DNA of 46,096 nt from Maribacter sp. (GTDB taxonomy: Bacteria > Bacteroidota > Bacteroidia > Flavobacteriales > Flavobacteriaceae). The notes beneath the pieces are model-generated. The model did not search any database. It was not told the DNA's origin and saw nothing but the letters and a program-made list of their open reading frames with translations. Numbering within the stretch: position 1 is the stretch's first letter; the number at the start of each line of letters is the position of its first letter. The translations under genes and the position numbers were made by a program. This document shows positions 28,080-29,958 of the stretch, in pieces. The DNA lies in NCBI RefSeq assembly GCF_016744255.1, contig NZ_JADGES010000015.1:1-46096 (forward strand). Reading direction: 5' to 3'.

Positions 28080-29177
28080 TTAATCTATAATAATTTCAAT
28101 GCCTGCTTTCTTGGCCTTATATTTTATTTTGGTCATTAGCTCATAATAACTCCAGTTTCTTAATACAAATTTTTCTTCTTTAGCAATACCAATCTTGTCT
28201 TCCTGATTTAATAGAATGAGTGTTCCAGCCTGATGTTTAATGCAAAAATCGATTAGCTTCCTACTGTATACATGAATACGATGGGATACATAATTACTTT
28301 CTGTTTTGCGAAAGTTATCCACTGCTTTTACTTTCCTTTTTACTCCTTTACCTGATCTAGAATAGGTAGCTCCTATCTGCGCCCTTTTTCGAGCTGCTTG
28401 TATAGCTAATCTTCTATATAGAAACTCTTCTCTAGTGCCAATGGTAAGTCTGGTATTAGCTGTTTTCACTACAATCGGATATTCAAGAGACAGGGATGCC
28501 TCCGCTATCACTTCTGGTTTTAAGGATAGCTTCTCTTTTTCAATTTCAAAAACTGGTAGCCAGAAGATTTTACCATCTTTCAGTTTAATATGAGAAGTAC
28601 ATAGCTTGACCTCTCCTTTTATGACTCGCTCCAATAGAACTCTTTTATCGGAATAATCTTTTCCTAAGTACGTTTTAAAAGGAATTTGAAATAAACGAAA
28701 ACAAAAAGCCCTTTTCTCATCATTATAAGATAATCTGCTTATGCCCTCCAAGCTAAATGGAAAGGCCATATCCCTCCTGAAGTTTTTAAGGGAACGTTCA
28801 CCTTTCCAATATTCCTGACTATTTTTCTTAAAAGAAGTGATTAAGGTATTATTCAAACTGGACAATATATTTGTTGGGATTTCACCCTTAAAGCGATTCG
28901 ATACCACGCGATAAGTAGTATTGATTCGGGAGCGTTGTAAGATACCTAGCTCATCTTTTTTTTCATCAGCCAATTTATACTTTATCCCCTCTGACAGATA
29001 AAAGAATTCCTTGATATTTTCCTGCACATACAAATGGGAAACAATAAGGTTAGCTGCTCTAAAGCACCTGTTTTGCCACTGATAAAGTTTGTCCAAGGCT
29101 TCCTTGCGTTCTTCTTTAGTAGGTAGGTCTACCAATAATTGGATTTTCCGAGTCAGTTTTAGTGTAGACTTTTCCAT
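28080..29177 (-). CDS. Nuclease-dead Cas12f homologue (dCas12f), RuvC-degraded and lacking the zinc finger
   Basis: The 365 residues have the Cas12f/TnpB layout: helical N-terminus with FRAANLIVSHLY (39-50), SLKNFRRDMAFPF (129-141), LLERVIKGEVKLCTSHIKLKDGK (181-203), a bridge-helix-like RREEF...AARKRAQIGATY (about 249-272), SNYVSHRIHVYSRKLIDFCIKHQAGTL (294-320) and RNWSYYELMTKIKYKAKKAGIEII (340-363). Catalysis looks lost. Where GVDLGIVN is expected the text is SLEYPIVV (Asp to Glu232 by hand alignment). The RuvC-II Glu region is altered (LLNQEDKIG). The protein stops at residue 365, just before the TSxxCxxC zinc finger and the RuvC-III Asp. It begins one base after the sigma-factor stop, which suggests a joint complex that binds DNA by RNA guide without cutting. 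Confidence 0.85.
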   Translation of the reverse strand: MEKSTLKLTRKIQLLVDLPTKEERKEALDKLYQWQNRCFRAANLIVSHLYVQENIKEFFYLSEGIKYKLADEKKDELGILQRSRINTTYRVVSNRFKGEIPTNILSSLNNTLITSFKKNSQEYWKGERSLKNFRRDMAFPFSLEGISRLSYNDEKRAFCFRLFQIPFKTYLGKDYSDKRVLLERVIKGEVKLCTSHIKLKDGKIFWLPVFEIEKEKLSLKPEVIAEASLSLEYPIVVKTANTRLTIGTREEFLYRRLAIQAARKRAQIGATYSRSGKGVKRKVKAVDNFRKTESNYVSHRIHVYSRKLIDFCIKHQAGTLILLNQEDKIGIAKEEKFVLRNWSYYELMTKIKYKAKKAGIEIIID

Positions 29178-29178
29178 A

Positions 29179-29958
29179 TTAAGACAATTGTGGTTGGTGT
29201 TTCTCCTGCATTAACTTATAAGCCACCATAAATTCTTTGTGAACTTCCTTTTGGGAGAGGTTAAGCTCTTTGGCGATCAAGGCAAAGGAATATTTATTTC
29301 TACATCTTAGTTCCAATACCCTTTCTTGTTCCTCGGTCATAACATCTTGAACCTTCATTCCGTTAGGAGGTCTTTTTTTGATTTTTGGAATACCTCCCTT
29401 ATTAATAATGGTTTTGATATCACTAATAGCTTTTTTTATTTCATGACTGGTTTCATTAATACTTGTTCCCATAACCTCGGCAATAGCCTTATATTGAAAA
29501 CCATATTTTAAACAGAGATCAATCAAATGCTTTCTTTCAGCACTCAATAGGGGTAATACGCTTTTGATTCGGTTGAAGGCTTTTTGTTGCGACTCCTGAT
29601 CTTTTAGATTTTCAGATACATGTATGGGATCATAACCCATCATATAGTCTTGGTAATTGTCGTAATTTTCTAACGAATAGACATTTCTAAAGAACTTATT
29701 TTTAGGTTTACTATAGTATGAAATACATTCTCTTTTCATCACAAACCGTAAGAAATAGAAAATATGCTTAGGAGATTCTATTTTGTCCCTATGAACCCAT
29801 AATTTTAAAAAAGTATCCTGAACTAAGGATTCTATTACAAAATGATCATTAATCATTCGCCTACCGACCCAAAAGATACTTCTGCTGTATTGAGCATGAA
29901 TTTGTACCATAGCAGAGGAGTCATTATTTTTTAATAATTTAAAATTACTGTGTGGCAT
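29179..29958 (-). CDS. ECF sigma factor (sigmaE) cotranscribed with dCas12f, with extra C-terminal HTH
   Basis: The 259 residues begin with a sigma-70 region 2 (about 12-85: YSRSIFWVGRRMINDHFVIESLVQDTFLKLWVHRDKI, ending FYFLRFVMKRECISYY). Region 4 (about 130-190: LPLLSAERKHLIDLCLKYGFQYKAIAEVMGTSINETSHEIKKA) follows. A third helix-turn-helix-like piece lies at the C-terminus (about 208-250: EEQERVLELRCRNKYSFALIAKELNLSQKEVHKEF), beyond the usual ECF length. No anti-sigma gene is beside it. In the reported dCas12f-sigmaE systems the sigma factor is brought to DNA by the Cas protein and guide RNA. The one-base spacing to dCas12f fits coupled expression. Confidence 0.88.
   Translation of the reverse strand: MPHSNFKLLKNNDSSAMVQIHAQYSRSIFWVGRRMINDHFVIESLVQDTFLKLWVHRDKIESPKHIFYFLRFVMKRECISYYSKPKNKFFRNVYSLENYDNYQDYMMGYDPIHVSENLKDQESQQKAFNRIKSVLPLLSAERKHLIDLCLKYGFQYKAIAEVMGTSINETSHEIKKAISDIKTIINKGGIPKIKKRPPNGMKVQDVMTEEQERVLELRCRNKYSFALIAKELNLSQKEVHKEFMVAYKLMQEKHQPQLS

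Follow-up and report, generated by a model that had tools for sequence, protein, structure and literature searches.

The window, that is, the whole 46,096-nucleotide stretch of Maribacter sp. DNA analysed here, carries a locus that, judged from its sequence, is a member of the known dCas12f-sigmaE family. We think it probable that this locus works as an autoregulating RNA-guided transcription cassette, in which a guide RNA leads the sigma factor and dCas12f to their own operon and activates it.

The dCas12f gene and its sigma partner

The genes lie where the earlier note had placed them. The dCas12f gene (28080–29177, reverse strand), which encodes a 365-residue protein predicted to be nuclease-dead, is separated by a single base from a gene for a 259-residue ECF sigma factor (29179–29958, reverse strand). 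In similarity searches, residues 1–364 of the dCas12f protein matched PDB entry 9n9c, ‘Nuclease-deactivated Cas12f’ (E 1e-200), one of four entries matched under that name (9n9c, 9n9m, 9n9o, and 9n9q), which we take to be the published dCas12f-sigmaE RNA-guided transcription system and which resemble the window locus in protein length, in similarity over the full length, and in the possession of a sigma partner. The next-best solved Cas12f, 9nzo, is a distant match (E 3.6e-41, residues 85–362 only), the TnpB structure 9nzp is weaker still (E 3.3e-14), and similarity to Cas12f1 is also weak. The protein is thus closer to Cas12f than to TnpB, a placement made by similarity searches only. Among the named genomes of the collection, the closest relative is that of Wocania ichthyoenteri (91%). 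The tree and the guide table comprise 64 of 73 sequences, nine partial, frameshifted or interrupted ones having been excluded.

The RuvC nuclease centre of the protein is destroyed. The RuvC-I Asp is lost, as had been proposed: S228 stands at the Asp of the GVDLG motif of Cas12f 9nzo, and among 64 aligned loci (window included) this position is S in 62 and A or T in the remaining two. The proposed truncation also holds, the protein stopping before the zinc finger and RuvC-III and matching the Pfam TNB (zinc-finger) model over its first 20 of 60 positions only, with a score below the cut-off; its relatives are equally short (363–366 residues across 64 loci). The alleged loss of RuvC-II is ambiguous, since the Glu lies opposite a gap in the alignment with 9nzo, but E326 (in NQED), which is E in 50 of the 64 loci, aligns with the Glu of 8hr5 and 7wju. 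This possible RuvC-II Glu and the weak TnpB and Cas12f1 similarity speak for an active Cas12f or TnpB nuclease residing in a CRISPR array or an IS605-type transposon. Such a nuclease is nevertheless extremely unlikely here: with the RuvC-I Asp replaced and the C-terminus missing, the RuvC triad is not intact, region 26300–31500 holds two-copy, chance-like direct repeats only, and no transposase domain was found in the four ORFs scanned by Pfam at the locus. The locus accordingly shows neither the repeat array (26300–31500) nor the RuvC-I Asp of type V-F CRISPR-Cas12f immunity.

Fragments and distant homologues of dCas12f were also observed. Remnants of 35–73 residues occur in three genomes: G180 and G198 (L183, L184, and L186), which also contain a full-length copy, and G057 (L181, G057:C1:23251-23409; 52 residues), which has the conserved element described below but no full-length dCas12f. 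A search of a phage collection with dCas12f returned two distant matches (26.7% and 24.6%), the former being a near full-length homologue at positions 339–1448 of MT835745.1, a phage contig of human faecal origin that carries no annotation.

The sigma factor is identified by Pfam matches to Sigma70_r2 and r4, by its adjacency to dcas12f, and by its similarity to 9n9q_C (‘RpoE’; E 2.1e-109, aligned over residues 2–258). The third HTH-like piece that the earlier note had regarded as unusual is present (a Myb/HTH match at residues 140–173 in addition to Sigma70_r4_2 at 207–242), but it is no peculiarity of the window, since the RpoE of 9n9q aligns throughout. In 66 of 72 loci a sigma gene immediately precedes dCas12f, and in a 67th it does so across a longer gap; the other five are cut, partial or distant matches. 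Such frequent direct pairing shows that the adjacency is not due to chance and that the two genes co-occur in relatives. The pairwise distances of the sigma and dCas12f proteins are also correlated (Mantel r 0.76, n = 59, with 0 of 999 permutations as high). Considering (i) the whole-length matches to solved dCas12f and RpoE (9n9c and 9n9q), (ii) the co-occurrence of the sigma factor, and (iii) the correlated divergence of the two proteins, the window pair is a new member of the dCas12f-sigmaE family, to which it had been provisionally assigned.

The cassette is convergent with a tyrosine recombinase (integrase) gene (26602–27846, forward strand; Pfam Phage_integrase, Phage_int_SAM_5, and Arm-DNA-bind_5), which adjoins a tRNA-Pro (GGG) gene predicted by ARAGORN (26313–26387, forward strand). 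The idea that the locus lies in a tRNA-Pro island stands in part: the integrase does adjoin the tRNA, and the congener genome G188, which is without dCas12f, aligns with the left-hand flank and with tRNA-Pro as far as window position 26476, but the genome yielded neither a second copy of the tRNA 3′ end nor an attachment-site pair for the island. Related integrases are present in 16 of 72 loci, not all of them adjacent, and tRNA-Pro lies beyond the integrase in five of the 60 loci scanned (L002, L003, L006, L015, and L060). The plasmid collection gave one matching record, through the integrase alone (4% of the query). Farther along the window are a 1087-residue ORF (38682–41945, forward strand) and a 443-residue ORF (41942–43273, forward strand), which have no Pfam match at E 1e-3 and adjoin an M78 peptidase-like gene, as well as an RnlA-like toxin gene (RNase LS, HEPN; 43805–44848, within 43443–44848, reverse strand) with a 120-residue ORF, possibly an antitoxin, directly behind it.

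The predicted guide RNA and its self target

A guide RNA appears to be encoded beside dcas12f. Directly 3′ of the gene lies a predicted scaffold (27998–28066, reverse strand) that ends in ...CATATACAAC and is followed by a guide (27982–27997, reverse strand) whose 16 nucleotides are conserved in relatives, except that base 15 is T here and A in most of them. Relatives share the block GAGGGTGCTTGTACACCCG...CATATACAAC and then the guide, likewise directly 3′ of dcas12f. In an alignment of 61 scaffolds (A2; five of the 66 extracted guide RNAs, L026, L050, L065, L070, and L071, were excluded because the scaffold end was misplaced or short), 97.4% of the cells of three helices are paired, as against 27–55% in slid controls, and 28 cells have changed on both sides versus 9.2 in shuffles. 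The support for the guide RNA is comparative, because the window scaffold folded by itself only slightly outdoes shuffled sequences (z about −1.1 to −1.2). Rfam recognised neither the guide RNA nor the conserved element in region 27500–31500 (four matches, all far below gathering scores) and, in the loci of six relatives, found only tRNAs.

The first 16 guide bases read GCGTGGGCTCTCTTAT in most loci, with at least 12 positions matching in 42 of 64; this rule (≥12/16) scores L037 and L068 as non-matching, although they carry the same guide shifted by one base. Within the genome of the window (3.59 Mb, 181 contigs), G followed by 12 guide bases occurs twice when no more than one mismatch is allowed, namely in the guide RNA itself and at 30127–30115. 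The full 17-mer matches with one mismatch at 30127–30111 and with three mismatches at three other sites. The latter are at chance level (about eight expected at uniform composition, 0 for a reversed control) and contain no element found by the model R1 described below, and we rejected them as further targets. The predicted self target (30111–30127, reverse strand) comprises strand B of the conserved element with the preceding G and lies about 153–169 bases upstream of the sigma start codon. It differs from the consensus guide by one mismatch, at guide position 2, whereas guide bases 3–14 match perfectly. The best predicted target of the window guide is, on these sequence matches, its own sigma-dcas12f operon.

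The published dCas12f-sigmaE system is said to require a G before the target as its TAM. A G does precede the self target, but the same G is a base of the element that pairs with strand C; the pairing also explains the G, so that it is weak evidence for a TAM.

Self targets that match the guide of the same locus at 13–16 of 17 bases (at least 14 in 16 of 17 loci) were found in the window and 16 other loci, 167–215 bases before the sigma ATG, while the best match elsewhere within these loci reaches 10–13 of 17. A search of 36 relatives' genomes with the 17-mer GGYGTGGRCTCWCTTAT (at most one mismatch) gave 94 matches in 34 genomes versus 2 for the reversed control. These matches include guide RNA genes and self sites; 65 begin with G, and the other 29 start with C or T, like guide RNA genes (individually checked in part).

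An attenuator-like element and the genes downstream of it

The self target is embedded in a conserved structured element of about 137 nucleotides (30043–30178, reverse strand; model R1, E 2.4e-23), which lies 84 bp before the sigma start codon and is the only copy that R1 found in the genome. Its 5′ part consists of AAACTGGTAATTTTT, a variable arm, GAGATGATAAG...GCTCACG (strand A; 30132–30152, reverse strand), and a loop; its 3′ part consists of GGCGTGGGCTCTCTTAT (strand B, the target), a complementary variable arm, GGTATACCAGTACC, and ATAAGTTGAGTTCCACGCC (strand C; 30061–30079, reverse strand), often followed by a run of T. Strand B begins about 50 bases into the element, and in 54 of the 55 elements measured strand C ends 49–53 bases past the end of the 17-base target. 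An 82-residue Cro/C1-like HTH ORF with a weak Pfam match (30325–30573, forward strand) lies about 150 bp past the element, divergent from the sigma operon.

We examined 40 places that contain 41 matches to the 17-mer, leaving out self sites and some others. After L135 (a guide RNA gene) and L141 and L137 at 3928 (inside coding sequence) had been set aside, 38 of the 41 matches remained, all inside the element. In two of these (Flavivirga L122 and L123) the 5′ half of the element, as far as the loop that precedes the target, has given way to a sequence that is nearly the same in both, which looks like insertion of a mobile element at the hairpin loop; the two were excluded from alignment A1 (36 elements plus the window) and from the test of the variable arms (53 of 55 elements). 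The match of L137 at 3928 (reverse-strand coordinate) is an exact 17-base target inside a SusC-like coding region, 1.3 kb after the true element, and is perhaps due to chance.

Two folds that exclude one another, and have strand B in common, are supported by the alignment. In the first, A pairs with B together with an outer helix (CTGGTA/TACCAG), 98.1% of the cells are paired, and 17 cells have changed on both sides versus 6.0 in shuffles. In the second, which is terminator-like, B pairs with C ahead of the T run, with 97.9% of the cells paired and 11 changed on both sides versus 4.4. Other measures are at or near the level of shuffled alignments: the number of pair types in A:B (12) equals the shuffled mean, and the B:C values for pairs with change on both sides (3) and for pair types (15) were attained in 61 and 59, respectively, of 500 shuffles. 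The variable arms are complementary (at least five contiguous pairs) in 52 of 53 elements versus 8.3 on average and 19 at most among 2000 shuffles. The window element forms A:B when folded whole (z −2.7) and B:C when folded from strand B onward (−31.4 kcal/mol, z −5.8). A simple terminator scan listed the A:B hairpin and lacked B:C, probably owing to its 8-base loop limit. Strand B reads GGTGTGG in the window and in L002, and strand A of the window has changed along with it (GCTCACACC), which preserves the hairpin to the detriment of the guide match. This layout is that of a transcription attenuator, and the element may work as one. A limited literature search on susC attenuators returned no description of the element among the matches listed, which is no proof of novelty.

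As the guide is identical to strand B over most of its 16 nucleotides and hence complementary to A and C, it could instead act on RNA, a copy of strand B pairing with nascent strand A or C and tipping the attenuator, with dCas12f as a carrier. Covariation in both alternative folds and the structural explanation of the G before strand B agree with such a role. Cas12f homologues, however, bind DNA, and other members of the family carry guides unlike the element; we therefore regard action on RNA as improbable. A comparable targeting of SusC-like genes by RNA is known from Bacteroides, where, according to the available part of PMC11697453, the FopS and GibS sRNAs (RbpB regulon) are paralogous and the FopS members use a short match that they share to repress SusC-like genes. 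FopS and GibS act on mRNA translation, whereas the Cas12f-bound guide of the window is expected to act on DNA.

In 30 of 71 loci, model R1 located a self element 79–132 bases ahead of the sigma start codon; in three others the element lies 2.5–3.5 kb upstream of sigma. The notion that guide and self element go together failed on the 64 full-length loci: a matching guide is accompanied by a self element in 17 (window included) and lacks one in 24, another guide accompanies a self element in 11 and lacks one in 8, and 4 could not be classified. Given the discordant loci (11 and 24 of 64), self element and guide match are uncoupled. In the comparison with the published system, the A. taeanensis locus L015 is about 80% identical to that of the window and has the same order of sigma, dcas12f, and guide RNA; its guide TTGTGGGATATACGCT differs and does not match its self element, while the window guide does match its own.

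The element is also found apart from dCas12f. Among 199 genomes of the same family, taken to be Flavobacteriaceae since the coordinates of G130 coincide with those of Sinomicrobium loci, R1 detected it in 38 and dCas12f (E ≤1e-30) is present in 9, all of which carry the element, as compared with 29 of the 190 genomes without dCas12f (Fisher p 1.5e-7). Full-length dCas12f is absent from these 29 genomes even at E 1e-3. Strand B is equally conserved without dCas12f (at most one mismatch in 18 of 20 copies). Considering these 29 genomes and the 11 loci in which the element precedes sigma alongside a non-matching guide, the element is not merely a dCas12f target, and we rejected that explanation.

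The same observations weigh against autoregulation through this element and also speak for a reading in which the window encodes a genuine dCas12f-sigmaE system, the self element is an RNA attenuator only, and the working target, an operon of the susCD type, is absent or lost while the guide drifts. That the single element of the genome is the self one, that guide base 15 has drifted, and that guide position 2 is mismatched on the self site are in keeping with this reading; the last two points, together with the hairpin-preserving change in strand A, also speak against autoregulation in the window. On the other hand, guide bases 3–14 are still perfect on the self site, and guide-matching self sites occur in 17 loci (window included) that do not all belong to one branch of the tree. 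We consider an attenuator without a role as target rather unlikely and retain autoregulation as the preferred reading.

SusC-like genes follow 39 of the 58 element copies examined. In dCas12f-bearing genomes, a SusC-like ORF lies within 4.5 kb downstream of 25 of 38 non-self elements (SusC together with SusD in 19), and two more precede an ECF sigma gene. For six of the remaining 11, the contig ends within 1.8 kb (L112, L113, L118, L126, L140, and L148), and four, from Sinomicrobium (L142, L145, L146, and L147), have HEPN, AbiEi-like or RelA/SpoT-like genes downstream in place of susC/susD. From genomes without dCas12f, 20 element regions were taken (12 of the 29 genomes), of which 14 precede a SusC-like ORF, 13 of them with SusD and two by way of an ECF sigma and a FecR gene; the six elements of one genome, G055, have no SusC-like ORF after them.

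Proposed control of the operon and of its clients

Combining these findings, we propose the following mechanism. The dCas12f-guide RNA complex would bind strand B as DNA, upstream of the sigma gene, and the sigma factor would then recruit RNA polymerase at the bound site. Transcription of the sigma-dcas12f operon would start downstream, resulting in positive autoregulation. In the published dCas12f-sigmaE system, transcription reportedly starts about 46 bp past the R-loop. A start at this distance would coincide with strand C or the T run (near 30060 in the window, giving a leader of about 100 nucleotides), and the transcript would therefore lack most of the terminator-like hairpin. The positive sign of the control is likely; the start is inferred from the reported distance. 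In relatives, where the same guide matches copies of the element before susC/susD operons, the complex would switch on operons for nutrient transport; in the window's own genome assembly, no client besides the own operon is visible.

The opposite sign would result if dCas12f on strand B blocked RNA polymerase arriving from an upstream promoter. Since the element begins some 50 bases upstream of strand B, it could be transcribed from such a promoter, and there is a precedent in TldR proteins, which the available part of PMC13418256 describes as RuvC-dead, TnpB-like homologues with a guide RNA and a regulatory role, acting as RNA-guided repressors. The window dCas12f is likewise a RuvC-dead relative of TnpB and Cas12 with a (predicted) guide RNA; by similarity only, it lacks the TnpB descent that characterises TldR. 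A roadblock, however, needs no dedicated sigma factor, yet one is adjacent in 66 of 72 loci and has been solved together with dCas12f in 9n9q. Because of this sigma partner, activation rather than TldR-like repression is expected of the window system, and negative autoregulation appears to us a poor candidate.

Several genomes contain more than one system (L005/L012 with L026; L035 with L044 and L058; L027 with L019; L068 with L057), one with an element-matching guide (in L068, once shifted by one base) and another with a different guide but with the element before its sigma gene. This arrangement suggests a cascade in which one dCas12f guide may switch on another system. More tentatively, and as a possibility we would not yet favour, the guide could be aimed at precisely the strand shared by both attenuator folds, before susC/susD operons and before its own operon, such that initiation past the terminator would override the switch, with self-amplification in the window and a cascade in multi-system genomes.

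The available part of PMC12250444 concerns engineered dCas12f only. The locus described here makes a concrete guide, a self target, and a conserved client element, often situated before susC/susD, readable from sequence. As a paradigm, RNA-guided transcription by dCas12f-sigmaE is recent, and to our knowledge neither its natural clients nor the regulation of the system itself is well mapped. The two-way RNA folding of the element would link dCas12f-sigmaE to a second layer of control, and the client range and the switching-on of dCas12f-sigmaE become testable questions.
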